Position numbers and translations under genes: made by a program. A DNA stretch of 64,000 nucleotides from the NCBI GenBank assembly GCA_029266495.1, contig JAQSWS010000005.1, positions 1 through 64,000 on the forward strand, read 5' to 3'. Within the stretch, counting starts at the first letter, position 1. Every line of letters starts with the position of its first letter. The notes beneath the pieces are model-generated. The model saw only the letters and a list, made by a program, of their open reading frames with translations, did not search any database and was not told the DNA's origin. Origin of the DNA: Rariglobus sp. GTDB taxonomy: Bacteria > Verrucomicrobiota > Verrucomicrobiia > Opitutales > Opitutaceae. Positions 5,027-28,311 of the stretch are shown piece by piece.

Positions 5027-6085
5027 TTATCGTGCCCGGGGAATCAGGCGGCCCAAACCATGAACAAGCACGATCAGCAGAAACCCCAGGTTACGAAGCG
5101 GCAGAGCCGGCCAAAACAGAGACAGCGCACCAAGGGGCTCGGTTTGAGATAACTGTCGGTCCAAGCGCTCCGCCAGAACCCGCAGCCACGAGATGGAGCG
5201 AGGCCAGTCGGAAACCCCGCGAACAAGGTGCTCGGGAATACCCCGCACACCCAAGTCCGCACCCGCCAAAGCCCCGGTGATCGCGCCGACAGTATCTGTA
5301 TCTCCGCCGCAATTCATCGCCGATTCCAAAGCCGCCTGAAAATCCCTTCGATGGCGCCACCAGGCATAAATCGCAATCGGCACACTGTGATAGGCATAAC
5401 CGCTCACGCCTTTGCCCAGGCCCAGTCGGATCGCAAAATCACACACGCTCATATCCGAAGACCGCGCATCACACATTTCAGTCACTATGCGCTGCCAGTC
5501 AGGCTCAGGACTAAGGCCTAGCAAAAGGGCGTTTGGACTCCCGTCAGCTTGGCTACAGGCGAAAGCCGCAATCTCAGCGACAGCCCGGGCTGCGACAATC
5601 GCCCGCGTATCCGTGTGCGTCAGCCGGGCCGAGGCTTCGACGAATTGACGACGACGCACTTCATCGTGCGCAAAAAACACACCCATGACGGCGCTCCGCA
5701 TCGCAGGGCCATTTCCTGCAGACGCAACACCGCTCCTCTTGGGCGAGAACCCCATCCATAACTTCACAATGGCCTTGGCTGTGGCCACCCCCACGCCTGC
5801 GGGCAAGGCGAGCAGCCACCACCGAAGTTTTTTCGCCAGCGCACGCTGGAATGCATCCGCATCGGTCGGATGCTCCAACAAACACTGCGCCACCATCGCG
5901 GTATGTTCCGTATCATCGCTGATCATTCCGCGCCCGCAGAAAAACCGATGCCGCCATTGGCCTTCCCATCGCGAAGCAATCACCTGCGGACCCAGCCCCT
6001 CGGCCGGCAAACCCAGCGCATCACCCACCGCCGTGCCCAAAAGCACGCCAGCCAGACGCTCTTGATAATTGAGACGGTCAGGCAT
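5027..6085 (-). CDS. ADP-ribosylglycohydrolase family protein
   Basis: RLAGVLLGTAVGDALGLPAEG, MISDDTEHTAMVAQ, NCGGDTDTVGAITGALAGA. Confidence 0.9.
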   Translation of the reverse strand: MPDRLNYQERLAGVLLGTAVGDALGLPAEGLGPQVIASRWEGQWRHRFFCGRGMISDDTEHTAMVAQCLLEHPTDADAFQRALAKKLRWWLLALPAGVGVATAKAIVKLWMGFSPKRSGVASAGNGPAMRSAVMGVFFAHDEVRRRQFVEASARLTHTDTRAIVAARAVAEIAAFACSQADGSPNALLLGLSPEPDWQRIVTEMCDARSSDMSVCDFAIRLGLGKGVSGYAYHSVPIAIYAWWRHRRDFQAALESAMNCGGDTDTVGAITGALAGADLGVRGIPEHLVRGVSDWPRSISWLRVLAERLDRQLSQTEPLGALSLFWPALPLRNLGFLLIVLVHGLGRLIPRAR

Positions 6086-6087
6086 GG

Positions 6088-6777
6088 TCAGAGTTCGAAG
6101 TTAAAACCGCGCTTGGCTAGTTGCTCATAACGTTGGCGGTTGAACCTGTAATATTGCGCAGCCCGATGGGCGACGTCCTGCTGGTATTCGTCCAGTGCTT
6201 CCAGCAATTCCATGCCCAGAATTTTTTTTCTGAAATTCCGCTTATCGAGCGGCTGTTCCAGGACTGCCTCATAAAGTCGCTGGAGTTCGCCCAACGTAAA
6301 CTTCACGGGAAGCAGCTCGAAGCCGATGGGCTCGTAACGCACCTTCGCCTTCAGGCGCTTGAGCGCGATTTCAACGATACGTTCATGATCGAAACCCAGT
6401 TTTGGAAGCTCCGCCACGGGGAACCAAGCAACGTTCTCCGCGTCACTGGCGGCCTGCAACGCATGGTCCGAAAGCTTCACGAGAGCGTAATAGGCCACAC
6501 TGATGACCCGCTCTCGCGGATCACGATCTGCCTCACCAAAAGTGTAAAGCTGCTCAAGATACAAACGGGTGATGCCGGTCTCATCCATTAACTCCCTGCG
6601 CGCGGCAGCCTCAAGATTCTCGTCAAGACGAACAAAACCACCCGGCAAAGCCCACGCCCCTTTGAACGGGGCGAGCTTTCGTTGAATCAGGAGGAGCTTT
6701 AGATCAGCGTCATCGAAACCAAAGACTACCGCGTCCACGGTCACCGCCGGATGAGGGTGCTGATAAGTGTAGGTCAT
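6088..6777 (-). CDS. Nudix hydrolase / NrtR-like transcriptional regulator
   Basis: Nudix box [24 protein letters not shown] plus C-terminal winged-helix-like [28 protein letters not shown]; start [15 protein letters not shown]. Confidence 0.85.
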
Positions 6778-6793
6778 CGCAAGACCGCCCATA

Positions 6794-6808
6794 GTGTTAA
6801 TTAAACAC
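6794..6808. promoter_or_regulatory. Palindromic operator candidate GTGTTAATTAAACAC
   Basis: GTGTT-N5-AACAC inverted repeat in promoter region of Nudix regulator. Confidence 0.5.
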
Positions 6809-6824
6809 AAAGAGTAAATCAAAA

Positions 6825-6891: not shown

Positions 6892-7662
6892 CTACCGCCC
6901 CTGATCCGCCACAAGGCGCACTCGCACGAGCAAGTCATTCAATTGCCCGCGAGTATCTTCACTCGGCAGTTCAATCAGGCGGCTGGCTTCATGTGCGGCC
7001 TGGAGCTCGGATCGCAGCCGCTGGTATTCCATCTCGTGAAAAACGACGTCTGCGTCTTCCAAGGTCGATTGTTCGGGACCACCCAATTTGCGGGCGATGA
7101 GTTCCGGCAGGTAAGGCAAACGAAACGATTCGTTCAATGTGACCAGGTTGGCCTCGATTTGCCCTGTCCTCATCAACCAGATGCCGGTGAGCAGCACCCG
7201 ATAAACGTAGAGGAGCGGTTTTACGCGACGCGGCGACTCCTTCAGGAACAGCTTCCACTGCGTTTCCGCGAAACCGAAGTAATGATGCGAATGATGTCGG
7301 GTGATGCATCCCTGCGCGATCGACTTGAGCTCGTCGTGCGCCGGCGACGAGCGAACGATCAACGGAGAATAAAGCTGCTCCAGAACGTAGCCGTTTTTCT
7401 TCAGCAGAAGATGCATGAACTTCCTCACGTCGTGACTCACGATGTCCATGTCGAGTCCCTCAATGATGCGGGCGTCCTCGATAGTTTCGTCGTCCACATC
7501 CAATCCGGCGATTTTGGCTAACGGAAGCACATGGCTCCCGCGCAAATCGAAATCCGAATCCGGCGAAGGGAACCCATAGAGATGCGCACCACTGATCGTC
7601 GCAAAAAGCAACGGATACGGCTGGGCGGCGACGATGTGGTGCAGGCGGGGATCAATGGTCAT
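6892..7662 (-). CDS. Nucleotidyltransferase (RlaP/COG3541-like)
   Basis: ISGAHLYGFPSPDSDFDLRG NTase core; RNA-repair-associated family. Confidence 0.8.
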   Translation of the reverse strand: MTIDPRLHHIVAAQPYPLLFATISGAHLYGFPSPDSDFDLRGSHVLPLAKIAGLDVDDETIEDARIIEGLDMDIVSHDVRKFMHLLLKKNGYVLEQLYSPLIVRSSPAHDELKSIAQGCITRHHSHHYFGFAETQWKLFLKESPRRVKPLLYVYRVLLTGIWLMRTGQIEANLVTLNESFRLPYLPELIARKLGGPEQSTLEDADVVFHEMEYQRLRSELQAAHEASRLIELPSEDTRGQLNDLLVRVRLVADQGR

Positions 7663-7681
7663 GGAACGAGAATCCTCTCAG

Positions 7682-8596
7682 TTAAAGTTGAGCGCGGCGT
7701 GCTTCGATCAGGAAGGCGTTCACTTTTTCGTAGTCTGGTCGTTCGGGCAGTCGGGTTTGCCGGAGAGCCGCTTCAAAATCGCGGTGCAACTCACGGCGCC
7801 AGGCATCGATTTCCTCCCAGGCAAGCTCTCCCCGCTTCACGGCCAGAAGCCGGTCGCGATGGGACTCAACGCGCACCGGCACGCGGTTTTCCCGCAGAGT
7901 GCCGGCACCGGTCAGCAACAGTCGGAGCAGATGCATCGCGTGTTTCCAGCGGATTTCTCCTTGGTTCCGCAGGTCCTGCTCCAGCTTTTTGAACTGGCTG
8001 AGCGCATAGCCATTGAAGGTCTGAAACACCATCTGCGACAGGAAACACTCCCGCAGTGAAAGCAGGCGGTCGCCGATCACGGTCGTTTTATCGACCAACG
8101 GAGAATACAGGCATTCCAGCACGTTGGGATTGGCCTTGAGGGCCATCACCAAAAATTTCTGGAGTTCCCAGTAACACGTTTGAGCCTCGTTGTCCTCGAA
8201 CTGCTCGGGTGCACCAAACAGAGACCACTGCATCTCGGGCGGCGCCTGATAGATCCCGCGCAGGTCCGTGTCCGAAACTTCGGTATCCAACCCGTAGGCA
8301 CGCGAGCCTACCGTGCAGCGGTAAATCACGCAGTCCTCCAGCTGAAAACTGATCAACGCATCGGACGCCGGCAGCCGATCTTTGAAATGTTTGAGCACCT
8401 CGAATTGCGCGCGTTCGATCGAGGTTTCGAAACCGTCCGAAAAGCGAATTAGATAGTGAACTTCCGTGCCGGCCGGTGTGCGCGCGACAATTCCCACCGC
8501 GCCGCGCGGGTGCACAGCGGCGCCGTTGCTGCCCTTCACTTCCTGATGAACGACCACTTGGGTGCCTGCGGATACCTTGGCGCTGTTGGATGTCAT
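7682..8596 (-). CDS. Second nucleotidyltransferase (RlaP/COG3541-like) with N-terminal extension
   Basis: CTVGSRAYGLDTEVSDTDLRGIYQAP NTase core; paralog of 6892..7662. Confidence 0.8.
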   Translation of the reverse strand: MTSNSAKVSAGTQVVVHQEVKGSNGAAVHPRGAVGIVARTPAGTEVHYLIRFSDGFETSIERAQFEVLKHFKDRLPASDALISFQLEDCVIYRCTVGSRAYGLDTEVSDTDLRGIYQAPPEMQWSLFGAPEQFEDNEAQTCYWELQKFLVMALKANPNVLECLYSPLVDKTTVIGDRLLSLRECFLSQMVFQTFNGYALSQFKKLEQDLRNQGEIRWKHAMHLLRLLLTGAGTLRENRVPVRVESHRDRLLAVKRGELAWEEIDAWRRELHRDFEAALRQTRLPERPDYEKVNAFLIEARRAQL

Positions 8597-8654: not shown

Positions 8655-9551
8655 TCACGCCATCAATGCTTTGGTGTCGGTGCTGAGTTCGGCGTGTTTG
8701 TCGAAGCCGATAAAGATGCGGGCATTCGCGTTCTTGCCGACTTCCGAGAGGGTTTGCAGCTCGCGCAGGCGAACCAGAGCCGGGTGTTTGGCGTAGGCTT
8801 CGGCCGCCTGAGCTTGTTCGCGCAGCGCCTGCACCTCGGCTTCGGTGCGGATGCGGAGGGCTTCGGCCTCGGCACGAGCTTCACGGAGGTGGGCGTCGGC
8901 CAATGACACGGATGCCTTGGCGTCGCTTTCGACGGAGGCGGCGGCTTCGATCAGTTTAATCTGGGCCTTGGCCTCGGCGGCGATTTTCTGCTGCTCGGCC
9001 TGGGTGCGGCTTTCGACGAGCTGCGCTTGCGACAGGCGCTCGGCGGCGAGAACTTTGTTCATCACTTCCTGGAGGTTTCCGGGAAAGACGAGGTCCTTCA
9101 CGTCGGCTCGCTGGATCGCGATGCCGTAGCCGGCGGCGGTGCCTTTCACTTCGGCGAGGATGTCTTCGCTGAGGCGGTTCCGGTTGGTGAGAATCTGTTC
9201 GAGCGTCATCGACGCGAGGGAACGACGGGCGGCAAGCTGCACGTCGCTGTAGAGGCGTTCGTCGTGGTTGCTCACCTGATGCAGCGCGGCCACCGGGTCG
9301 GTGACTTTAAACTGCACGATGATGCTGACGCGGATCGCGACTTTGTCGGCGGTCAGGATTTCCTGCCCCTTGATCGTCAGGTCGCGCTCACGCACGTCCA
9401 CGAGCACGATCTCGACAAGCGGTGAGCGATAAAATGGCAAATTCCAGCGGCGGGGGATTTCGTAAAATCCGGGGCCGAGGACTTCCTGCATGATGCCGTC
9501 GGCATAACGCAGACCGCGGTGGGTGTCTTTGATGAGGAGGGTAGTTTTCAT
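8655..9551 (-). CDS. SPFH/slipin family protein
   Basis: MKTTLLIKDTHRGLRYADGIMQEVLGPGFYEIPRRWNLPFYRSPLVEIVLVDVRERDLTIKGQEILTADKVAIRVS. Confidence 0.85.
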   Translation of the reverse strand: MKTTLLIKDTHRGLRYADGIMQEVLGPGFYEIPRRWNLPFYRSPLVEIVLVDVRERDLTIKGQEILTADKVAIRVSIIVQFKVTDPVAALHQVSNHDERLYSDVQLAARRSLASMTLEQILTNRNRLSEDILAEVKGTAAGYGIAIQRADVKDLVFPGNLQEVMNKVLAAERLSQAQLVESRTQAEQQKIAAEAKAQIKLIEAAASVESDAKASVSLADAHLREARAEAEALRIRTEAEVQALREQAQAAEAYAKHPALVRLRELQTLSEVGKNANARIFIGFDKHAELSTDTKALMA

Positions 9552-9739
9552 TTTTAAAGCGGATGCTCCGAAGCGAGGCCCATGCTGAAGTAATGACCGA
9601 ATCAGATCGGTTTCGCCGATACGGTGAGGTGGCGAATCTTGTTGGCGGTCATCTTCATGGCGTCGCCGGAGCAAAGTCTGGAAAGGGTGTGTGAATGCCC
9701 GCAGACGGTGACACCGTGCGGGCGGGTTTGGCTAATTAA

Positions 9740-11272
9740 TCAGAGCTGGGTTTCAGTAAGGCCTTCGCGGCGCTCGCTCTTGTGTGCGGCGCGTTTTTCG
9801 CGACGGACACGCTGCCAATGCGGCTCCGGAGCTTCACCGGCCATGATGCAGCCTTGCGGGTGGATCTCACCGACTACGGTCGCGAGACCAAAGCGAGCGA
9901 TCTGGGCCTTTACTTTCGTCGCGTCCTTGTAGCCGAGCGGAGACTCGGAGAGGTCGGCGGCACCGTTATACCAGCGCACGTCGATTCCCTGCGTCACTGC
10001 GGACAGGACTTCCTTCAGGCGGGCCGGATCGATCTCACCCTCGGCGTCCTTGTAAGGACGCAGCATCGCGGTGCGCGACAGGTTGCGTCCGGCGCCGTGC
10101 GGGCAGAACGACAGGTAGTCGGTGTTATCCGAACCGAGCACGAGCAGGATTTCACGCGCCATGTTGAGCGGGATCAGACCAAGCAGCGGACGCCCTTGCT
10201 CATCCCGCCAGGCGGGCGTGGCACCTTTTCCATGGAAGAACACGTCGCCGCGTTTCCATACAAAGTTATGCTCGTTGCCGATCTGCACGAGGGCGCGCTG
10301 ACCCAGACGGCCCAAAAAGGCGGCATGGATCTGGGCGTGGTTTTCACGGGTCCAGCGACCGATGTATTGCAAGGCGTCCCAATAGGCGCGGCCTTCCTCG
10401 GAATCCGCCGGCAGCCAGACGGCGGCATCGGGGATACCTTGGGTGTTTTCGTCGCACCAACGGCGTGCGGCGATTTGACCACGCTTGTAGAGGTCCGCAC
10501 CGAGACCGCGCGACCCATGATGGGTCACGAGAACGCTAAACTTGCCTTCGCGGCGGACGATCCACTCAGCCAGCTCCGTGTAACCGGCGGTCTCGATGGC
10601 GAGACGTTGCTCCTCGGTGAACTGAATCTGCCCCACATAGGCGAAGTGGTTGCCGTCGCCCTGCGTGCCGAGGAAATCCTGGGCGCGGCTGCGCAGACCG
10701 GAAAGGAACGGATTATCCCACACCGACTCGTCGAGCACAGCGGACGAAAACTGCTTTCCACGCGGACGGCCACCGGCACCGAAATGCGTGATTTTTTGAA
10801 GATGATCCATCATCTCGCCCACCGGATGGTTGGCGTCGAAGAAGGTCGCGAACATCGAGCAGCAGATATCCGCCGAATGCGCGCCCGGGATGATGGCGTT
10901 TTCAACCGCAATGGCTCCGCCCACCGGGATGGTCGCGGTCCCACCTCCGGTCGGGCAGGTGTCGGGCATCAACACGCCGCGCTGCACCACCGGCACGTGA
11001 AGGAGTTCCTTCATACGGATACGGGATGAGGCCACATTGGCAGCCTCCTCAAGAGTGTCGGCTTCGACGGCCTCCGCCAACGGAGCACCCACCGGACGCG
11101 GCTGGATCAGCGGCGGCTGTTTCGGGAAGTCCTGTTCGAGTTGAGCAAAGAGGAGGGCGCGATCGAGGCCGGTGGCATCGAGTTCACGGGCACGGCGCAG
11201 GGCCGAACCAAGACGGCGGCCTTCGAGCCAGCCGGCCGCGATCAGGTCGCGGGCTTTGATTTCCATGGTCAT
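9740..11272 (-). CDS. rtcB: RtcB family RNA ligase
   Basis: MPDTCPTGGGTATIPVGGAIAVENAIIPGAHSADICCSM, GSRGLGADLYKRG, QIGNEHNFVW, FCPHGAGRNLSRTAM, VGEIHPQGCIMAGE. Confidence 0.93.
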   Translation of the reverse strand: MTMEIKARDLIAAGWLEGRRLGSALRRARELDATGLDRALLFAQLEQDFPKQPPLIQPRPVGAPLAEAVEADTLEEAANVASSRIRMKELLHVPVVQRGVLMPDTCPTGGGTATIPVGGAIAVENAIIPGAHSADICCSMFATFFDANHPVGEMMDHLQKITHFGAGGRPRGKQFSSAVLDESVWDNPFLSGLRSRAQDFLGTQGDGNHFAYVGQIQFTEEQRLAIETAGYTELAEWIVRREGKFSVLVTHHGSRGLGADLYKRGQIAARRWCDENTQGIPDAAVWLPADSEEGRAYWDALQYIGRWTRENHAQIHAAFLGRLGQRALVQIGNEHNFVWKRGDVFFHGKGATPAWRDEQGRPLLGLIPLNMAREILLVLGSDNTDYLSFCPHGAGRNLSRTAMLRPYKDAEGEIDPARLKEVLSAVTQGIDVRWYNGAADLSESPLGYKDATKVKAQIARFGLATVVGEIHPQGCIMAGEAPEPHWQRVRREKRAAHKSERREGLTETQL

Positions 11273-11372
11273 GATTATAAAGAAGAGAGTTGGAGGAATC
11301 GGACGGGGGTTTTTTCTGGGAAAAGAATAACCCATATTGTGCGATCCGGATAGAGGAGAGGGTGCATAATAC

Positions 11373-11537: not shown

Positions 11538-12191
11538 TTATATTGGGGAGGGAGTGGAGAGCGCGGTCTCTTCACGAAGCGTAAGGCCGGCGGGACGGCG
11601 GCGGTGCCACCAATCTTTTCGACCGTGCAGATTGCCGAGACGTTCTCGTCCGCGCGTGTGCGTGAAACGGGCGTCGATCTCGGCGATGCGGCGACGCACT
11701 TCGGGGAGTTCCACGCGCTGATGCGTAATCATCCAGGGCTGCACGTCTTCCTCCAGCCACCACGGGTTGCGGATGGAGAAACCGACGACCAGGCGACGGC
11801 GGCGGTAAGACCGGCGCGGTAGCAGTTCCTCTTCCCACGGTCCGTAGGTGAACAGGCGGCGATGGCTGGCCGGCCAGGGCAGACGCTTCCACTCCAGCGG
11901 CAGAATGATACGCGGACGAAGACGATACGTCTGCCCGTCGGGCAGGATGAAATCGGGTTCACGCGACCAGATCCGCTGGTTAACGGCGGCCAGCACGGTG
12001 CGGAACACCGCGACGTCGATGCGGCGGCGAATGTCGTCGCGGAGCACATAGGTCTTGGTCCAGCCGCGTGGGTAGGGCTCGACCAACGGAACCACCGGCG
12101 CGAGGCTGAGCGCACGGCGTAGTTGGTCGTGTTCGCGCTCGAGACGGAGGAGTTCCTTGTCGCGGGCGGTGTGTTTATCGAGAAAGCGCAT
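11538..12191 (-). CDS. Hypothetical Arg-rich basic protein, RNA-repair locus associated
   Basis: Intact 217-aa ORF between rtcB and sigma factor, many Arg/Trp (RRSYRRRRLVVGFSIRNPWWLEEDVQPW). Confidence 0.7.
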   Translation of the reverse strand: MRFLDKHTARDKELLRLEREHDQLRRALSLAPVVPLVEPYPRGWTKTYVLRDDIRRRIDVAVFRTVLAAVNQRIWSREPDFILPDGQTYRLRPRIILPLEWKRLPWPASHRRLFTYGPWEEELLPRRSYRRRRLVVGFSIRNPWWLEEDVQPWMITHQRVELPEVRRRIAEIDARFTHTRGRERLGNLHGRKDWWHRRRPAGLTLREETALSTPSPI

Positions 12192-12212: not shown

Positions 12213-12920
12213 TCAGTCGCGGCTGCGGTTGACGAAGGACTGCCAGAGGGCGAGGACAACGAAGTCGGCGCGGAGCTTTTTTTCGCCGGCTTCGCGGACC
12301 TGACGCGCACGCTCGCGCGAGACGCCGAGTTCGGCGGCGATGTCGTCGAGCGTGGCGTCTTCGAGGTAGTAACGGCGGAGCGCCAGCGACTGGTTGGCGG
12401 GCAGGCGCGTGAGCGCGACGCCGAGGCTGTCGCGGACGTCGTCGAGTTCGACAAACTCGGCGGGCGACGGCAGGTGGGTGTCGGGGATCGAATCCCACTC
12501 GATCTCGGTGGTGTCGGCGACTTGCGCGGCGGCGTTGATCACGGAGGCGACCTCGGCGATCGTGAGTTGGACGGACGCGGCGATCTCTTGCGCGGTCGGG
12601 ACGCGACCGAGACGGGTGGCGAGTTCGGTGCGAGTGCGCGCGATGAGGCCGATCCGGTCGCGTTGGCGGCGGCTCAGCGGATCGAGGCGGCGGAGTTCGT
12701 CGAGCATGGCGCCGCGCACGCGCACGTAGCAGTAGGCGCGCACGTCGTCGGGATCGCCGTCGCGTTGGCCGAGCGCGGCGATGAGCGCGAGTTTGCCGAC
12801 GGACGCGAGGTCATCGCGCGCGACGCCGGACGGCAGACGCCGGGCAAGGGTGGCGAGCGCGGTTTCCACTATGTCGAGGAAGTCGGCGAGCGCCGGAGGG
12901 AATGGAGACACACAGGTCAT
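12213..12920 (-). CDS. RNA polymerase sigma factor, FliA/WhiG (sigma-28) type
   Basis: YVRVRGAMLDELRRLDPLSRRQRDRI, LGRVPTAQEIA, DDIAAELGVSRERARQVREAGEKKLRADF. Confidence 0.88.
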   Translation of the reverse strand: MTCVSPFPPALADFLDIVETALATLARRLPSGVARDDLASVGKLALIAALGQRDGDPDDVRAYCYVRVRGAMLDELRRLDPLSRRQRDRIGLIARTRTELATRLGRVPTAQEIAASVQLTIAEVASVINAAAQVADTTEIEWDSIPDTHLPSPAEFVELDDVRDSLGVALTRLPANQSLALRRYYLEDATLDDIAAELGVSRERARQVREAGEKKLRADFVVLALWQSFVNRSRD

Positions 12921-12999: not shown

Positions 13000-13632
13000 T
13001 CAGTGCGTGAGGAAGTGTCGCCAGTCCGGGTGTCGGGCGTCGCGGATCGCGACGGACGCCGGCAGCGGCGCGGGGGCTTTGGGCCTGCGCAGCAACCGGA
13101 GTCCGGCTTCGTGCGGGAGTCGGTTGGCCTTGAGGGAGTTGATCTCCCGCTTGGCCCACACGAGGTTCTCGAACGTGTCGCGTCCGCCGCGGTCGCGGGG
13201 GACGACGTGGTCGAGGTTGCCCCCAAGCCGCCCGACACGTTCGCCGGTGTATTGGCAGACGCCGCCGTCGCGCTCGAAGATCGCCTCGCGAGAGAGACGT
13301 GGGGTGTGAACCGGCATTTTCGCGAACTGGGTCGCGACGATGACGGTGGGCACGCGGATGCGGAGTTTCGGCGTGGTGATCGCGAAATCGAAATCACGCA
13401 CGGGCAGTTCGATCCACTCGCTCCAGGGGAGCGGGTTGAGGAAAAGCGGGCGGTCGAAGTTCCAGCCACCGTCGTCGAGTTTCGGATACGCGATGTCGAG
13501 GCCGAGCGCGGGCGGCAGGCTGGCGTTGCCGCCGTTGAGGGCGACAAGTGCCTGCTTGACGGTGCGGTGACCGATGACCTGCCAGGCGCGGTTGAGCGAC
13601 AGGACGATGGGTTTGTCGAGGATGTCAGACAT
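13000..13632 (-). CDS. HNH endonuclease
   Basis: IVLSLNRAWQVIGHRTVKQALVALNGG then IFERDGGVCQYTGERVGRLGGNLDHVVPRDRGGRDTFENLVWAKREINSLKANR. Confidence 0.88.
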   Translation of the reverse strand: MSDILDKPIVLSLNRAWQVIGHRTVKQALVALNGGNASLPPALGLDIAYPKLDDGGWNFDRPLFLNPLPWSEWIELPVRDFDFAITTPKLRIRVPTVIVATQFAKMPVHTPRLSREAIFERDGGVCQYTGERVGRLGGNLDHVVPRDRGGRDTFENLVWAKREINSLKANRLPHEAGLRLLRRPKAPAPLPASVAIRDARHPDWRHFLTH

Positions 13633-13690
13633 GGGAAAAAGTGATGATGGTGAAAAAGGAGAGATCCTCGCGGAGCCCGGTCAGCCAACA

Positions 13691-13711
13691 ACGGTGTGTG
13701 TTCTTTTTTGT
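13691..13711. repeat. 21-bp terminal inverted repeat, left copy (ACGGTGTGTGTTCTTTTTTGT)
   Basis: Perfect reverse complement at 18746..18766; adjacent to last tRNA of array. Confidence 0.9.
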
Positions 13712-13717
13712 TAAAAT

Positions 13718-13792
13718 TGGATCTCCGCGCCGGGCTTGCGCCGGCCTCTGCGGTTTACAAAACCGCGGCATCGCTACCTATGCTTGCAGAGA
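13718..13792 (-). tRNA. tRNA-Thr(TGT), T-loop CGCAAGC
   Basis: Acceptor TCTCTGC/GCGGAGA, T73-CCA encoded, anticodon loop TTTGTAA. Confidence 0.85.
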
Positions 13793-13796
13793 GTTA

Positions 13797-13885
13797 TGGC
13801 GGAGGACTGAGGTCCTGCCCCCCAGCGACCACGTGTCGCCGCACGCGTTAGCACCGCGGCTCCCGACTTCCGGGATAAGTCCTCC
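13797..13885 (-). tRNA. tRNA-Ser(GCT), class II, T-loop GGCAGGA
   Basis: Acceptor GGAGGAC/GTCCTCC, G73-CCA, loop GTGCTAA, long variable arm. Confidence 0.8.
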
Positions 13886-13889
13886 AAAC

Positions 13890-13963
13890 TGGTCCACCCA
13901 CTTGGTATCGCGCCAAGGTCTGCCGGTTATCAGCCGGCTGCTCTGCTTTTGAGCTATGGGTGG
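13890..13963 (-). tRNA. tRNA-Ile(GAT), T-loop CGCGATA
   Basis: Acceptor CCACCCA/TGGGTGG, A73-CCA, D-arm GCTC-AAAAGCA-GAGC, anticodon arm GCCGG-CTGATAA-CCGGC. Confidence 0.9.
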
Positions 13964-13968
13964 AAAAT

Positions 13969-14058
13969 TGGCGGAGAGCGGAGGTCTTGCACCCCAACCG
14001 GTCTGGCCGGTCCATCTGTTTTCAAGACAGCGTCCGCGCCTCGGCGGATTCACTCTCC
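13969..14058 (-). tRNA. tRNA-Ser(TGA), class II, T-loop TGCAAGA
   Basis: Acceptor GGAGAGT/GCTCTCC, G73-CCA, loop CTTGAAA, long variable arm. Confidence 0.85.
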
Positions 14059-14060
14059 AA

Positions 14061-14220
14061 TGGTCTCCACGGCAGGAATTGCACCTGCGTTGATCCGCTT
14101 AGAAGACGGATGCCTGATCTATTGTTCGCCGTGCTGCCCGACGGGCACCCGCACGGCTCACCTTCGCTTCGCTCAGGCTACGCCCTCTCCGCGCTGCCGC
14201 GCTACGTCGGCCACACGGAG
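14061..14220 (-). tRNA. tRNA-Arg(TCT) with large D-loop insertion, T-loop TGCAATT
   Basis: Acceptor CTCCGTG/CGTGGAG, A73-CCA, loop CTTCTAA; hairpin insertion between D-stem halves. Confidence 0.75.
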
Positions 14221-14225
14221 AAAAG

Positions 14226-14301
14226 TGGCAGGCCCGGTCGGAATTGCACCGACACTATTCCGCGTTCGAAGCGCGGCTGACTATCTTTTGCCGACAGGCC
14301 T
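14226..14301 (-). tRNA. tRNA-Arg(TCG), T-loop TGCAATT
   Basis: Acceptor AGGCCTG/CGGGCCT, G73-CCA, anticodon arm CCGCG-CTTCGAA-CGCGG. Confidence 0.9.
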
Positions 14302-14306
14302 GAAAA

Positions 14307-14381
14307 TGGTCCTCCTGCCAGGAATTGCACCTGGGGCTCGGCCTTCGCACGGCCGCGTGATGGCTTCTTCACTACAGGAGG
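14307..14381 (-). tRNA. tRNA-Arg(GCG), T-loop TGCAATT
   Basis: Acceptor CCTCCTG/CAGGAGG, A73-CCA, anticodon arm CGGCC-GTGCGAA-GGCCG, D-arm GTGA-AGAAGCCA-TCAC. Confidence 0.9.
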
Positions 14382-14389
14382 AAAAGGGA

Positions 14390-14414
14390 ACGGAGCCGAA
14401 CATCGTCCGGCTCC
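14390..14414 (-). terminator. Hairpin downstream of Ro60 stop codon
   Basis: CGGAGCCG-N9-CGGCTCCG perfect 8-bp stem followed on minus strand by TTCCCTTTTCC. Confidence 0.4.
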
Positions 14415-14431
14415 GGCAGAAAACACGCAGG

Positions 14432-15871
14432 TCAATCCGCCAGAGGGACGGATTCCACCTCGTGGACAAGGGCCTCGGGATCGCGGTCGAGTTTCTGCAT
14501 GATCTCGAACACACGGTCGCTCCAACCGGCGAGGCAGTAGACCCGCTCCTGTGGGAACTGGAGCGTGCCGTTGCCTTTCAGGTCGAAGCTGTAAACCAGG
14601 GGCGCCACCGCATAACGCTTCTGATAAGCGGCAAACGGCTGCACCGGCGCACCGCCACCGATCCAGCCCTGCATGTCGGACAGAATCACGATGCGATCAT
14701 AAGCACGGTTGGCCCGCTCGAAGATCGCATTGAAGTTCGTCCCGCCCGCCGCAAACGGAATGCTGGCGGCCGCCGTAAGCGTGCTATCACGACGGTTCAG
14801 CGAGATGTAGCGGGCATCATCACTGAAGACCATGAGATCCGCCCCCGTTACCTTGACCAGCACGGCCGCAAACAGGGAGCCGATCGTTTGCGGACGACCC
14901 GCCATCGAGCCCGACGAATCGAGCGCGATCAGCGTGTTGCCTTCAAACTTCGGCACGTTTGCCAGCGAGAAATCAATCGCCTGGTTAAGCGCATCCATCA
15001 CTTTGTCCGCGCCCTGCAGGTTGCCCTGCTTGAGCACTTCGACCGCCGAGAGGAACTGAAACGGAAACACCAGCGAGCGGCGCACGGCACGCTCGTCGGT
15101 GAGTTGATCGCACAGCTCCTTCGCCACCTCGGGAGCATGAGTCAGGACGTTACGCACGTTACGCAGAAGGGCCAGGTAACCGAGCTTACGCTCACGCACC
15201 AGCTCCGCCCACGCTTGAGACTTGGCGACGGCGACATCGCCACCGGCCTCGCCCTGCCCTGCCTGGGTCAGCTTGGTTTCCCACGTTTCCGCAGGAGCCA
15301 GCTCATCCCGGACAAGCTTGGACAGGGCAGCCGATGACTTCGGACGAACCAGGTTAACGGCATCGACCAGCTTGAAGACGCCGTGATCCCGTCTGTATTT
15401 GGCGAGTTGATACTCGTCAAATCGGCCAAGCGCGGCACCCAGACCCTTTTTCAGGGAGTTCGGGATCGGACGGCCGTAGACCGCCAGATAGTAACCGAGC
15501 GTCTCCATGACATCATCCGGGCGGCGCACCACTTCGGCATAGAAATGCTTCGTCCATGACTGGCCCTTCACTGACTTGGCCAGCTCACCCGCGACCAGGT
15601 GACTGACCGACCGCATACCATGGGTATTGCGAGCATAGAGGGCGGCTTTGGCGACGAAACGCGGATCATTCACTTTCGTGATGAGTTCGCGGATGCGAGC
15701 CGTGGTCTGCTTCTCCGTGCGGTAGAACTCGTCCTCCAGAAACGTGGTCAGGAGAATCGAAACGAATTCGAGTTTGGCGGTCTGGGCGAAAGCCCGACCA
15801 CCTGCAAAGTTGACCGTGTCGGGCGCGGACTTGCGGCGCGACAGGGCGGTAAGAATACTGAATTTAGCCAT
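14432..15871 (-). CDS. rsr: TROVE domain protein (Ro60 ortholog)
   Basis: TROVE-type HEAT repeats (RELITKVNDPRFVAKAALYARNTHGMRSVSHLVAGELA) and C-terminal vWA MIDAS NTLIALDSSGSMAGRP. Confidence 0.92.
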   Translation of the reverse strand: MAKFSILTALSRRKSAPDTVNFAGGRAFAQTAKLEFVSILLTTFLEDEFYRTEKQTTARIRELITKVNDPRFVAKAALYARNTHGMRSVSHLVAGELAKSVKGQSWTKHFYAEVVRRPDDVMETLGYYLAVYGRPIPNSLKKGLGAALGRFDEYQLAKYRRDHGVFKLVDAVNLVRPKSSAALSKLVRDELAPAETWETKLTQAGQGEAGGDVAVAKSQAWAELVRERKLGYLALLRNVRNVLTHAPEVAKELCDQLTDERAVRRSLVFPFQFLSAVEVLKQGNLQGADKVMDALNQAIDFSLANVPKFEGNTLIALDSSGSMAGRPQTIGSLFAAVLVKVTGADLMVFSDDARYISLNRRDSTLTAAASIPFAAGGTNFNAIFERANRAYDRIVILSDMQGWIGGGAPVQPFAAYQKRYAVAPLVYSFDLKGNGTLQFPQERVYCLAGWSDRVFEIMQKLDRDPEALVHEVESVPLAD

Positions 15872-15892
15872 GATGGCTTCCTTTCATTAAAA

Positions 15893-15918
15893 AACCGCGA
15901 CGGAGATCCGTCACGGTT
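15893..15918 (-). terminator. Intrinsic terminator/attenuator between Y RNAs and Ro60 ORF
   Basis: Minus strand AACCGTGACGG-ATCT-CCGTCGCGGTT (11-bp stem, one G-U) followed by TTTT, just upstream of GAAAGGAAG RBS-like and ATG of the TROVE gene. Confidence 0.7.
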
Positions 15919-15951
15919 GGATTAGCCCGGAACGCCGGGACACGATGTTGA

Positions 15952-16085
15952 TTGTGGGAGAAATTCGCCCTCGGAGACGGTCTTGCGACCGCTGCTGCTC
16001 TACCACTGAGCTACGCGTGGAAACGCGGATGGAGTCGAACCACCGACCGACAGTTTAGAAGTAACCGAGAACTCACTGTCCACAA
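15952..16085 (-). ncRNA. YrlA-like Y RNA candidate (epsilon)
   Basis: Outer stem TTGTGG/CCACAA; ACAGTGAG...GGTTACTTC motif; T-arm GGTGG-TTCGACT-CCATC then CGCG-TTTCCA-CGCG closed acceptor then TAGCTCAGTGGTAGAGC D-arm (permuted order). Confidence 0.65.
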
Positions 16086-16092
16086 AGAGAGA

Positions 16093-16185
16093 CGAGGGAG
16101 AAACGTGAACGCGGGTTTCTGGGTTTGAACCAGATCATCTGTTTAGGAGGTTTTCCGAAGTAACCGCGCTCTCACCACCCTCGAA
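16093..16185 (-). ncRNA. YrlA-like Y RNA candidate (delta), truncated tRNA-like module
   Basis: Outer stem CGAGGG/CCCTCG; GTGAGAGCGCGGTTACTTC motif; T-arm TCTGG-TTCAAAC-CCAGA; no D-arm found. Confidence 0.5.
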
Positions 16186-16189
16186 GAGA

Positions 16190-16330
16190 TTCGGAGGAGA
16201 AAGCCGAACACAGGTTTTTTTATCTGAGCTACGGCTCCCGCGAGGGAACCGGTTGGCATCGAAACCAACGACCTTCCCCACCGAAATGGAGCTGCTCTAC
16301 CGAAGTAACTGCATTCTCACTGCCTCCGAA
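16190..16330 (-). ncRNA. YrlA-like Y RNA candidate (gamma), circularly permuted tRNA-like module opened in D-loop
   Basis: Outer stem TTCGGAGG/CCTCCGAA; CAGTGAGAATGCAGTTACTTC; GGTAGAGC...GTTGG-TTTCGATG-CCAAC-CGGTTCC then GGAGCCG-TA-GCTCAG: 7/7 acceptor pairing in permuted order. Confidence 0.7.
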
Positions 16331-16335
16331 ATAAA

Positions 16336-16483
16336 TTCTGGGAGAAACACAGGCGAAGTCCCCCTGGAGCCCTTCCCATCGCTTACTCACGTAAACGACA
16401 GGCGCTCGTATTTGCAGCCATGGTTCGCGCCAGGCACGGGGATTCGGGTTGGAGCGAAGTAGCTTCACCTTCACTGCCCAGAA
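16336..16483 (-). ncRNA. YrlA-like Y RNA candidate (beta), degenerate tRNA-like module
   Basis: Outer stem TTCTGGG/CCCAGAA; CAGTGAAGGTGAAGCTACTTC motif; trailing TTTCTCC. Confidence 0.5.
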
Positions 16484-16489
16484 AAAGAA

Positions 16490-16677
16490 TCCAAGAGACG
16501 GAGCGTAGCGGAGAAGGGGCCACCGAAGGTGGAGTCCGCAGGACCGCGCACAGCGCGCCAACACCGACCAGAGACGATAACGTGCTCTACCCATTGAGCT
16601 ACCTCCCCGTAAATGATGGGGAGGATCGGACTCGAACCGACAACCACGCGCGAAGTAACTCTGATCTCACTGCTTGG
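16490..16677 (-). ncRNA. YrlA-like Y RNA candidate (alpha), interrupted by a 70-bp insertion
   Basis: Outer stem CCAAG/CTTGG; CAGTGAGATCAGAGTTACTTC; T-arm GTCGG-TTCGAGT-CCGAT-CCTCCCC then GGGGAGG-TA-GCTCAATGGGTAGAGC (7/7 acceptor, permuted). Confidence 0.68.
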
Positions 16678-16720
16678 AAATAAATACACCTTTGCCGAGT
16701 CGCCTCGGACAAAAGAAAAA

Positions 16721-16805
16721 TGGTCGGCGGGACAGGACTCGCACCTGCACGGGCTCGCGCCCACGAGTTTCTGAGACTCGCGTGTATGCATTCCACCACC
16801 CGCCG
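16721..16805 (-). tRNA. tRNA-Leu(CAG), T-loop TGCGAGT
   Basis: Acceptor CGGCGGG/CCCGCCG perfect, A73-CCA, anticodon arm CGAGT-CTCAGAA-ACTCG, long variable arm. Confidence 0.88.
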
Positions 16806-16812
16806 AAAAAAC

Positions 16813-16903
16813 TGGTGCGGCCGGAGAGATTCGCACTCTCACGAGCTTGCGCTCCGCTCTTCCCGATACCAACGGGATGCGTCGCTTCCTACGCTTGGCC
16901 GGC
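16813..16903 (-). tRNA. tRNA-Thr(GGT)-like, degenerate acceptor, extended variable region, T-loop TGCGAAT
   Basis: A73-CCA, T-stem GAGAG/CTCTC, anticodon arm TCCCG-TTGGTAT-CGGGA; acceptor only about 4/7 paired. Confidence 0.6.
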
Positions 16904-16910
16904 ATAAAAA

Positions 16911-17082
16911 TGGTCGAGACGGAAGGACTCGCACCTTCGCAGTCCGTGAGGACGGCGCGTTTACAGCGCGCTGCAATTGCTGTTGTTCGCCATGCCGCCC
17001 AGACGGCACCCGCATGGCTCACCCCTCGCGGTGCTCAGGGCTACGCCGTCTCCGCGCTACGCGCTTCGTCTGCCACGTCTCG
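16911..17082 (-). tRNA. tRNA-Tyr(GTA) with large D-loop insertion, T-loop TGCGAGT
   Basis: Acceptor CGAGACG/CGTCTCG perfect, A73-CCA, anticodon arm GCGCG-CTGTAAA-CGCGC, class II variable arm. Confidence 0.8.
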
Positions 17083-17086
17083 AAAT

Positions 17087-17162
17087 TGGAGGCTCGGGCG
17101 GGATTCGCACCCGCACGGACACGGCGTATGAAACCGTCGCACTGCTGTTGTGCTACCGAGCC
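17087..17162 (-). tRNA. tRNA-Met(CAT) elongator-like, T-loop TGCGAAT
   Basis: Acceptor GGCTCGG/CCGAGCC perfect, T73-CCA, D-arm GCAC-AACAGCA-GTGC, loop TTCATAC. Confidence 0.85.
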
Positions 17163-17166
17163 AAAA

Positions 17167-17241
17167 TGGTGGGTCGCCTCGGTAATGCTCCGAGTTCTGC
17201 CGGTTAAGAGCCGGCTGCTTCACGGTTAAAGCTTACGACCC
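17167..17241 (-). tRNA. tRNA-Lys(CTT), T-loop AGCATTA
   Basis: Acceptor GGGTCGT/GCGACCC, A73-CCA, anticodon arm GCCGG-CTCTTAA-CCGGC. Confidence 0.85.
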
Positions 17242-17252
17242 GTGGGAAAATA

Positions 17253-17327
17253 TGGCTCCTCGGGCAGGTTCCGCCCCTGCACCTCCGCATTAACAGTGCG
17301 GCGTTCTGCTAGTTGAACTACCAAGGA
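17253..17327 (-). tRNA. tRNA-Asn(GTT), T-loop GGCGGAA
   Basis: Acceptor TCCTTGG/CCGAGGA, G73-CCA, D-arm GTTC-AACTAGCA-GAAC, anticodon arm CCGCA-CTGTTAA-TGCGG. Confidence 0.87.
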
Positions 17328-17334
17328 ATGAAAG

Positions 17335-17478
17335 TGGTCGAGGTGGAGGGATTGACTCGCGCTCACACGCTCGGGGCGTTGCCCCACGTCTGCGACGTGC
17401 CGGTCGGCCTGCTGGCCTCCCGCACCCCCGTTATGGCTGGGTGTAGGCCAGCTGCCCTAGCTGCTAGGCGACACCTCG
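17335..17478 (-). tRNA. tRNA-Val(TAC) with T-loop insertion and C33
   Basis: Acceptor CGAGGTG/CACCTCG perfect, A73-CCA, anticodon arm GCTGG-CCTACAC-CCAGC; T-stem GGGGG/CCCTC split by hairpin insertion. Confidence 0.72.
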
Positions 17479-17482
17479 AAAT

Positions 17483-17621
17483 TGGCGCTCGTGATCGGAC
17501 TTGCACCGATTGACTTCCCTTCGACAAAGGGCTGATTGGCTCGCTGCGCTCGGGTCTTTGACCTCCGCCTGCGGCGGCCCCTTCTCCGCTACGCTCCGTC
17601 GACTCCTTCATCTCCACGAGC
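17483..17621 (-). tRNA. tRNA-Asp(GTC) with D-loop insertion, T-loop TGCAAGT
   Basis: Acceptor GCTCGTG/CACGAGC perfect, G73-CCA, loop TTGTCGA, T-stem ATCGG/CCGAT. Confidence 0.78.
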
Positions 17622-17627
17622 AAAAGG

Positions 17628-17703
17628 TGGTCAGGTGGGTGGGACTTGCACCCACTTCCCCGGCTTCACGGGCCGGTGCCCCGCTGACTGGGCCACGCAC
17701 CTG
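17628..17703 (-). tRNA. tRNA-His(GTG) with C33, T-loop TGCAAGT
   Basis: Acceptor CAGGTGC/CCACCTG (6/7), A73-CCA, anticodon arm CCGGC-CCGTGAA-GCCGG. Confidence 0.82.
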
Positions 17704-17707
17704 AAAA

Positions 17708-17782
17708 TGGTCGGAGCGGCGTGATTTGCACACGCGTAGCCTCGGTCCCAAGCCGAGTGCCTGACTTCTAGGCTACGCCCCG
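17708..17782 (-). tRNA. tRNA-Pro(TGG), T-loop TGCAAAT
   Basis: Acceptor CGGGGCG/CGCTCCG, A73-CCA, D-arm GCCT-AGAAGTC-AGGC, anticodon arm CTCGG-CTTGGGA-CCGAG. Confidence 0.88.
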
Positions 17783-17787
17783 AAAAT

Positions 17788-17923
17788 TGGATGCGGGTGT
17801 CGGTGGAGCGAAGCGGAACAGCGCACCAGCATGTGCGGGGCAAGGCCCCGAGTGCCAGCGAGTCAATCGCACCGACGGGCATCGTGGCTTATGAGACCAG
17901 ATGGAGACCTCGCTCTACCCGCG
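17788..17923 (-). tRNA. Initiator-like tRNA-fMet(CAT) with T-loop insertion
   Basis: C1xA72 mismatch (CGCGGGT/ACCCGCA), T73-CCA, loop CTCATAA, GGT/GCC at 29-31/39-41; T-stem GTCGG/CCGAC split by insertion after TGCGATT. Confidence 0.72.
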
Positions 17924-17928
17924 AAAAT

Positions 17929-18004
17929 TGGTGGAGGCTCGCGGTTTTGCTCCGCGCTCTCGTGGTCTTCAGCCACGCGCCATCACTAGATCGGCTTAAC
18001 CTCC
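17929..18004 (-). tRNA. tRNA-Phe(GAA), T-loop AGCAAAA
   Basis: Acceptor GGAGGTT/AGCCTCC, A73-CCA, anticodon arm CGTGG-CTGAAGA-CCACG. Confidence 0.85.
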
Positions 18005-18098
18005 AAGTGCCGGACTTCACCCCCCGGCGGGTCTTTCTACCTATATGGGACTTTTACCCACCCTGCTTGCGCAGTGTTACTCTTCATTCAGTCGAAAT

Positions 18099-18174
18099 TG
18101 GCATCCGCGGTGAGGATCGCACTCACCCGTTAGGTTTTGGAGACCAGACCGACCGCCTAGATCGTCTCGCGGAT
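18099..18174 (-). tRNA. tRNA-Trp(CCA), T-loop TGCGATC
   Basis: Acceptor ATCCGCG/CGCGGAT perfect, G73-CCA, loop CTCCAAA, T-stem GTGAG/CTCAC. Confidence 0.82.
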
Positions 18175-18179
18175 AAAAT

Positions 18180-18252
18180 TGGTGGAGCTGGACGGTAACG
18201 CTGTCGCCTCCGCGTTGCAGGCGCGGCGTGCTGCTCTTACTACTACAGCCCC
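18180..18252 (-). tRNA. tRNA-Ala(TGC), degenerate short T-arm, C33
   Basis: Acceptor GGGGCTG/CAGCTCC, A73-CCA, anticodon arm CCGCG-CCTGCAA-CGCGG; T-arm GACAG..CCGTC with shortened loop. Confidence 0.68.
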
Positions 18253-18256
18253 AAAA

Positions 18257-18332
18257 TGGACACGACGGCGGGACTTGCACCCGCGAACCTCGGCTTTGCA
18301 GACCGGTCCCTTGGCTGCTCGGGCACGTCGTG
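18257..18332 (-). tRNA. tRNA-Cys(GCA), T-loop TGCAAGT
   Basis: Acceptor CACGACG/CGTCGTG perfect, T73-CCA, loop CTGCAAA. Confidence 0.87.
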
Positions 18333-18410
18333 ATGAATACCTGCGACTCAGGTCGCTCGGCGTAGGAAGACTTCTCCGACGTCCGCCCTCAATGACCGCA
18401 GGGTAAGTGT

Positions 18411-18486
18411 TGGTGGAGCCGGCGGGAGTTGCACCCGCACCGTGCGGATTAAAAGTCCGCTGTGCTGCTGTTGACACCACAGCTCC
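18411..18486 (-). tRNA. tRNA-Lys(TTT), T-loop TGCAACT
   Basis: Acceptor GGAGCTG/CGGCTCC, A73-CCA, D-arm GTGT-CAACAGCA-GCAC, anticodon arm GCGGA-CTTTTAA-TCCGC. Confidence 0.9.
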
Positions 18487-18487
18487 G

Positions 18488-18561
18488 TGGTGCGCCTGGG
18501 GAGATTCGCACTCCCCACTCCGGACTGGCAGACCGGCACGTTACTCCTACGCTACAGGCGC
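18488..18561 (-). tRNA. tRNA-Gly(GCC), T-loop TGCGAAT
   Basis: Acceptor GCGCCTG/CAGGCGC perfect, A73-CCA, loop CTGCCAG, T-stem GGGAG/CTCCC. Confidence 0.9.
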
Positions 18562-18570
18562 AAATTAAAA

Positions 18571-18647
18571 TGGCCGCCTCGACGGGAGTCGCACCCGCAT
18601 CCCTCGGCTTGAAAGGCCGGGATCCTGGACTGTTAGACGACAAGGCG
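18571..18647 (-). tRNA. tRNA-Glu(TTC), T-loop TGCGACT
   Basis: Acceptor CGCCTTG/CGAGGCG, G73-CCA, loop CTTTCAA, T-stem GCGGG/CCCGT. Confidence 0.88.
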
Positions 18648-18656
18648 GAAAAATTG

Positions 18657-18709
18657 AAACGCACGGCCGGCATCACCGTTTAACACCCATCGGGGTGCAC
18701 CGTGCGTTT
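18657..18709 (-). ncRNA. Structured leader RNA / small three-way-junction RNA upstream of tRNA array
   Basis: 10-bp outer stem AAACGCACGG/CCGTGCGTTT enclosing CACCC-CGAT-GGGTG and CGG-TGATG-CCG hairpins. Confidence 0.5.
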
Positions 18710-18745
18710 GGTCGCAGAACCGCTCGAAAGCGGGCCTGCATTTTC

Positions 18746-18766
18746 ACAAAAAAGAACACACACCGT
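18746..18766. repeat. 21-bp terminal inverted repeat, right copy
   Basis: ACAAAAAAGAACACACACCGT, perfect reverse complement of 13691..13711. Confidence 0.9.
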
Positions 18767-18930
18767 CGTCCCTCTCACGCCGACAAAGTCGGGGTGGTTT
18801 GGACGGCCGCAGGATTTTATGCGGTCGTTGGCTGATTGACTGGGCTCAGCGATGAAGCCGCTTACGGAATATGGAAAACGAGTGTGAACTCGGCTTTCCG
18901 GAAGCGGCCCGCTGGCTTGAGGCACAAAAA

Positions 18931-18954
18931 AGCCCACTTCCGGATAGAAGTGGG
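18931..18954 (-). terminator. Intrinsic terminator on minus strand
   Basis: GCCCACTTC-N6-GAAGTGGGC 9-bp stem followed on minus strand by TTTTTT. Confidence 0.75.

Positions 18955-21978: not shown

Positions 21979-28311
<6,333 letters not shown>

Follow-up and report, generated by a model that had tools for sequence, protein, structure and literature searches.

Why would a bacterium carry, beside its ordinary transfer RNA (tRNA) genes, a second and nearly complete set in which one of the most conserved contacts of the molecule is rewritten? The question is raised by a locus of Rariglobus sp. (assembly GCA_029266495.1, contig JAQSWS010000005.1, forward-strand positions 1 to 64,000; this stretch of 64,000 nucleotides (nt) is hereafter called the window). 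The tRNA array consists of 25 genes at positions 13718-18647 on the minus strand, the place and orientation given by a first-pass annotation made from the sequence alone, and forms two blocks, between which lie a Ro60 (TROVE) gene and five Y-RNA-like modules. ARAGORN called 13 of the array tRNAs, 12 scored above the Rfam cut-off, and 21 (20 whole, one partial) were found with a covariance model trained on the array family; the total of 25 combines these program and model calls with hand parsing of the remaining genes against their relatives. The array serves 19 of the 20 amino acids, Gln being the only absentee, and the acceptor stems of most members are fully paired (7/7). A separate housekeeping tRNA set is present in the host.

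The contact between G18 and pseudouridine 55 (Ψ55) is among the most conserved in tRNA, and it is here that the array departs from the rule. T-loops read TGC or AGC, CGC or GGC in 24 tRNAs, and all readable T-loops have G55; the Ala T-loop reads AGCGTTA, and its T-stem is unpaired. This agrees with the first-pass annotation, which had reported G55 in 24 T-loops and an unclear Ala T-arm. Outside the array, 41 distinct host tRNAs were read elsewhere in the genome, and all 41 have U55 (TTC in 40, TTT in one). The annotation had named G55 in the host's housekeeping tRNAs as a finding that would overturn its reading; because the host's other tRNAs are normal, the view of the array as a special, parallel set is upheld. 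The array D-loops (AACAGCA, AAAAGCA, AGAAGCCA) have the form A14 R15 N A18 G19 N A21. The annotation had described the loss of both G18 and G19; the first is indeed gone, replaced by A18, but G19 is retained opposite C56. Relative to the canonical elbow, then, the array tRNAs have A18-G55 instead of the G18-U55 contact and keep the 19-56 Watson-Crick pair, and a few members in the window (Leu-CAG, Lys-CTT) have U or C at position 18 together with G55. A strict A18/G55 pattern occurs far above chance: the window holds two matches versus none expected, and of the 401 genomes searched in the phylum five contain the pattern, versus none for a reversed control.

Bases 18 and 55 change as a pair, from G18-U55 to A18-G55. 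Ro60-linked loci contain 167 A18/G55 and 61 G18/U55 tRNAs, with two cases of A18/U55 and none of G18/G55 (Fisher 5e-54, relatedness ignored). A scan of IMG/VR with the strict pattern returned at least 120 stretches, from which the tRNAs hit by the pattern were themselves removed before counting; among the matches listed, these viral loci hold 229 A18/G55, 448 G18/U55, two A18/U55 and four G18/G55 tRNAs (Fisher 6e-176, relatedness ignored), and additionally 11 with G18/C55. At least three of the four viral G18/G55 calls are errors in D-loop register (CCTAGTGG twice, AATAGTGG). Both elbow states are found within one locus in 52 cases, and a tree of 245 tRNAs, built without the loop columns, has 64 state changes versus 83 for shuffled labels (the tree is poorly resolved, and the figure of 64 is rough). 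A single ancient swap is disfavoured by these mixed loci and by the number of changes on the tree.

Base 19 follows base 56 in much the same manner. For tRNAs lacking C56, the 18-19 dinucleotide was predicted by taking G or A at position 18 as dictated by base 55, and at position 19 the base that forms a Watson-Crick pair with base 56. The predicted dinucleotide is present in 29 of 30 such tRNAs, compared with a mean of 7 and a maximum of 16 when D-loops were drawn from C56 tRNAs. Matched combinations are likewise seen at the variable 54-58 contact (U-A, A-U, G-G and C-A), and 97.5% of the stem cells of the array family pair, with covariation far above that of shuffles. Since base 19 matches base 56, the elbow has been rebuilt and not lost, and complete elbow loss is ruled out; the stem pairing and the strict coupling of 18 with 55 bear out the earlier proposal of selection for a different elbow rather than decay. 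As a separate observation, single tRNAs in four loci (L171, L179, L188 and L043) have the 19-56 pair swapped to A-U, C-G or U-A, and such tRNAs belong to the U55 as well as to the G55 class.

Stem pairing, amino-acid coverage and mostly kept discriminators together point to tRNAs that are competent in translation. Related arrays supply nearly all amino acids. The tRNAs for Asn, Asp, Gln, Trp, Cys, Ile, Leu and Tyr have regular discriminator bases in these arrays and those for Lys, Val, Pro and Thr nearly regular ones, the G3:U70 pair of tRNA-Ala is kept in most Verrucomicrobial arrays, and the window fMet tRNA has C1 opposite A72 and is an apparent initiator. CGN codons are read in the Verrucomicrobial arrays by Arg-GCG and Arg-TCG, not by the inosine-dependent ACG, and two of these arrays have Ile-TAT in place of the lysidine-dependent CAT, so that decoding would be less dependent on modification.

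A search of 301 genomes of the class found relatives of the Ro60 protein in nine, this genome included. Relatives are also encoded on 30 genome contigs, which belong to Opitutaceae, Verrucomicrobiaceae, Chthoniobacter, Saprospiraceae and Holophagaceae, and many of them adjoin tRNA arrays. The arrays of Verrucomicrobia are mostly swapped, and those of Saprospiraceae and Holophagaceae are mostly canonical. Swapped array tRNAs also occur in two genomes in which the Ro60 search gave no match (G281/L208 and G163/L209). Nearly all Verrucomicrobial loci long enough to show an HNH gene have one, while RtcB, a sigma factor, a 217-amino-acid (aa) protein, RlaP or SPFH are found in subsets of them.

The Y-RNA modules of these operons stand between the array and the Ro60 gene. 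Against the YrlA model (RF02553), the window scores 38-39 bits (E 4e-6 and 8e-6), short of the gathering score of 69, and the motif recurs in related loci. A tRNA-mimic domain that has the canonical TTCGA and GG comes after at least two of the window modules. Among the 21 modules for which both arms can be read, 18 have U55 with GG; of the others, two are paired swaps (TGC and AG) and one combines CTC with AG in the D-loop. Because the Y-RNA mimics mostly keep the normal elbow, G55 is not due to local mutation bias. The association with RtcB and Ro60 that had been noted earlier is also present, with the RtcB gene beside the array and the Ro60 gene within it.

Phages carry the swap as well. Two of the 16 viral records tested combine a terminase with a mostly swapped array. 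One (G313, locus L164) has G55 in 35 of 37 tRNAs together with terminase, portal and major head protein genes, and the other (G314, locus L188) has G55 in 24 of 25 tRNAs together with terminase, head proteins, RtcB and an HNH protein 51% identical to that of the window. A terminase also occurs on viral records with mixed arrays (L096, L129 and L179); no terminase match was found in the other records tested, which may be fragments or non-phage. Phage tRNAs are known agents of counter-defence (PMC10264068, PMC11555353). The phage arrays set against tRNA-targeting defence are alike in being large and having HNH genes, and some have A18/G55, RtcB or TROVE, but the escape described for counter-defence tRNAs works by anticodon-loop changes or by supply and not through the elbow. 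DNA similarity found no named phage with a swapped array. A Klebsiella phage match was rejected as a swapped array, since the matching element is a different RNA. This element (L224:12001-12123) is 79% alike to one in a viral swapped array (L188:8984-9100), is assigned to no family by Rfam, and lies near a weak match to permuted transfer-messenger RNA (tmRNA; L224:11738-11853). A TROVE-like protein (L187:2857-4599) adjoins a mostly swapped array on a 74-kb viral contig.

Taken together, these observations lead us to favour, with a probability of roughly 55%, a conditional, translation-competent backup tRNA set whose alternative elbow evades attack or modification directed at U55 or the elbow. 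In such tRNAs, the G18-Ψ55 contact would be replaced by an A18-G55 contact, the geometry of which we infer, the 19-56 Watson-Crick pair would be retained, and G55-C56-R57-A58, which has the form of a GNRA-type turn, could substitute for the U55 U-turn. A GNRA form of the U-turn has been described (PMC5311481) and fits this tetranucleotide; U-turns also accept C in place of U (PMC6061696), in keeping with the small number of C55 tRNAs. The rebuilt elbow should preserve the L-shape, as supported by the covariation. U55 is the target of TruB, and many enzymes recognise the elbow (PMC4810234). With U55 removed, the array tRNAs therefore cannot be TruB substrates at this position, and enzymes that read T54-Ψ55 or G18 should act on them poorly. 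CdiA-CT E479 is a T-loop tRNase that cleaves between T and Ψ (PMC9086364), and Cas12a3 grips the tRNA T-arm (PMC12851939). The trigger may be the cutting or disabling of normal tRNAs by a tRNase that reads the T-loop or elbow, either the toxin of a rival or a defence effector that phage infection also sets off. The operon would then be induced, the array tRNAs would be charged and would sustain translation, RtcB and RlaP would repair cut RNAs, and Ro60 and the Y RNAs, with their normal-elbow mimics, may bait or sort damaged RNA. Structure is kept, the canonical bases are avoided, matched alternatives are tolerated and the swap recurs in hosts and phages; escape is therefore likelier than the gain of one new partner, and escape from a nuclease or a modification would be the best remaining explanation of the swap.

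Several points weigh against this explanation. No enzyme that discriminates U55 from G55 was identified in these hosts. The arrays of Myrna and GodonK (mycobacteriophage and Gordonia phage) have no G55 tRNA at all, and the tRNAs of the Anabaena trn operon are canonical G18/U55 except for Glu-CTC (L073:2507-2584), which is A18/G55; since these arrays are canonical, backup function does not depend on the swap. There are departures from identity rules, with A73 in 6 of 11 His tRNAs, C or U73 in 5 of 9 Met tRNAs and A73 in all Gly tRNAs. Finally, five window tRNAs carry GC-rich insertions of approximately 60-85 nt, in the D-loop (Asp, Tyr and Arg-TCT) or the T-loop (Val and fMet), and may be broken in this genome; matched relatives of the Asp, Tyr, Arg-TCT and Val tRNAs are without insertions, and for fMet a good intact match was not found. 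A reading of the insertions as a genome-wide repeat is not supported, the Tyr insertion having no other copy save a 23-nt partial match, and the resemblance of this insertion to an HDV-like ribozyme (GGCAUGGCGAAC) received no support from Rfam.

The main rival to evasion is independence from modification, according to which the set is usable at once under stress without TruB, TrmA, TrmH, TadA or TilS, no nuclease being involved. It would account for Arg-GCG, Arg-TCG and the two Ile-TAT of the Verrucomicrobial arrays, and G55 does abolish the Ψ55 substrate. We nevertheless judge it unlikely: the swapped phage array L164 uses Arg-ACG, C55 should serve equally well yet is rare (11 G18/C55 versus 229 A18/G55, among the matches listed), and modification independence alone leaves the canonical Y-RNA mimics unexplained. 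Less probable again is that the array tRNAs are decoys, a possibility raised in the first-pass annotation, or sponges, which would absorb a tRNA nuclease or feed Ro60. The linkage with Ro60 and Y RNAs could be read in this way, and the tRNA-like domain of YrlA has been suggested to act as a competitive inhibitor (PMC7790460). Decoys should resemble their target, however, and it is the array tRNAs that have lost the canonical elbow, while 18 of the 21 Y-RNA mimics are normal. The kept identity elements and near-complete decoding likewise disfavour decoys, and the array of G281/L208 has no detected TROVE or Y motif.

A use of the array tRNAs as non-translational aminoacyl donors that avoid EF-Tu seems highly improbable. 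The precedent is the staphylococcal peptidoglycan tRNA-Gly, which has a GUGC T-loop (G55) and an altered D-loop. That case is restricted to glycine and is non-translational, and its D-loop change is unlike A18 G19, whereas the window has a full isoacceptor set. The escape of the staphylococcal tRNAs from EF-Tu (PMC9976931) extends the parallel, but donors of this kind would not need near-complete amino-acid coverage, full decoding anticodons or an apparent initiator. Relaxed drift of silent spare genes, with G55 incidental, could produce the five insertions and the degenerate Ala T-arm but is strongly disfavoured, the drift or pseudogene reading being ruled out by stem pairing (97.5%, with covariation) and the strict 18-55 coupling and further opposed by compensating 19-56 changes and recurrence in unrelated phages.

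The class of system to which the array belongs is already known, and the elbow swap is its new part; a description of a whole-set A18-G55 swap was not found in the open-licence literature searched. The trn operon of Anabaena is silent, comprises 26 tRNAs, is induced by translation inhibitors together with rtcB, slipin and HNH, and favours survival (PMC10272220), and so offers a precedent for the backup function proposed here. This operon (Anabaena/Nostoc PCC 7120, TrcR regulon, plasmid delta) is like the window in its near-complete tRNA set and its homologous HNH protein (38% over 110 aa, E 1e-22). The rtcB and slipin genes are co-regulated with the trn operon, whereas in the window RtcB and SPFH are linked by location, downstream of the array. 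The regulator differs (TrcR, compared with a sigma factor in the window), and no Ro60 or Y RNA was noted in the stretch of the Anabaena operon read. The RNA repair operon rsr-yrlBA-rtcBA (Salmonella type) is alike in having a Ro60 homologue, RtcB and, putatively, YrlA-like RNAs, but the window RtcB is of a distant subgroup, and the neighbours identified are RlaP and SPFH rather than RtcA or RtcR, neither of which is among the scanned neighbouring proteins of the window array. No mention of a tRNA array was found in the paper searched on this operon.

The features of the locus are collected in Table 1.

Table 1. Positions of the array and of its associated features within the window.
Feature	Position	Strand	Remarks
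Two RlaP nucleotidyltransferases (RNA repair pathway pol-beta family)	6892-8596	-	PF10127, E 5e-42 and 2e-52
SPFH/Band 7 (slipin-like) protein	8655-9674	-	PF01145, E 5e-29
RtcB-family RNA ligase	9740-11335	-	PF01139, E 4e-33
217-aa protein	11538-12191	-	conserved in several related loci
FliA/WhiG-type sigma factor	12213-12920	-	candidate regulator
HNH protein	13000-13632	-	PF13395; accompanies nearly all related arrays (tblastn across loci); also in Anabaena trn operon
Inverted repeat, right arm	13688-13717		
Second tRNA block, 7 genes	13718-14381	-	Arg-GCG, Arg-TCG, Arg-TCT, Ser-TGA, Ile-GAT, Ser-GCT, Thr-TGT
Ro60-like TROVE protein, 479 aa	14432-15871	-	vWA DSSGS motif; PF05731, E 4.5e-21
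Five Y-RNA-like modules (CAGUGAG..GUUACUUC)	15968-16673	-	motif survey; YrlA RF02553 below gathering score
First tRNA block, 18 genes	16721-18647	-	Glu, Gly, Lys-TTT, Cys, Ala, Trp, Phe, fMet, Pro, His, Asp, Val, Asn, Lys-CTT, Met, Tyr, Thr-GGT, Leu-CAG
Insertion-bearing tRNAs	Asp 17483-17621, Tyr 16911-17082, Arg-TCT 14061-14206, Val 17336-17477, fMet 17788-17922		
Inverted repeat, left arm, 30 nt	18740-18769		conserved upstream of first tRNA in related loci

For the 217-aa protein, no match was obtained in Pfam, NCBIfam or PADLOC and no convincing match in the PDB. The scanned neighbours of the array, which cover part of the window, include no phage genes and are of chromosomal or RNA-repair types; a search of an anti-phage database gave weak HNH matches only. 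Downstream of the RNA repair genes lie a DraG-like ADP-ribosylglycohydrolase and an NrtR regulator (5027-6822), and a hybrid histidine kinase of 2110 aa, in which HAMP-like units are repeated many times, is encoded at 21979-28311.

The array is enclosed by a 30-nt inverted repeat, the arms of which are 93% alike and share a 16-nt core present at only these two sites in the genome; in related loci, a matching core precedes the first tRNA. With just two genomic copies, the repeat was rejected as a dispersed element. It could pair across the transcript like a ribosomal RNA processing stem, or it could mark a regulatory site. The leader of the array (18648-18950) is conserved across Opitutaceae and contains a hairpin resembling an intrinsic terminator in addition to the left arm of the repeat. 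Two gaps between tRNAs (18333-18410 and 18005-18096) are structured and match none of the assigned tRNAs, and the first overlaps a weak match to permuted tmRNA.

More broadly, it is possible, and we propose it tentatively, that the 18-55 pair is an evolving mark of self and non-self in an arms race over tRNA. tRNases of the kind envisaged above, reading U55 or the elbow, would act as toxins or phage-defence effectors, bacteria and phages would independently convert whole sets to A18-G55, with variants at 19-56 and 54-58, and canonical Y-RNA mimics would serve as bait. The recurrence of A18-G55 in whole sets means that the elbow is rewritable when its partner bases change together. The pair provides a sequence signature by which backup and counter-defence tRNA sets can be found, and tRNAs that carry it may offer scaffolds that escape the Ψ55 synthase. 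The swap also predicts the existence of enzymes that attack tRNA and recognise it by U55 or the elbow.

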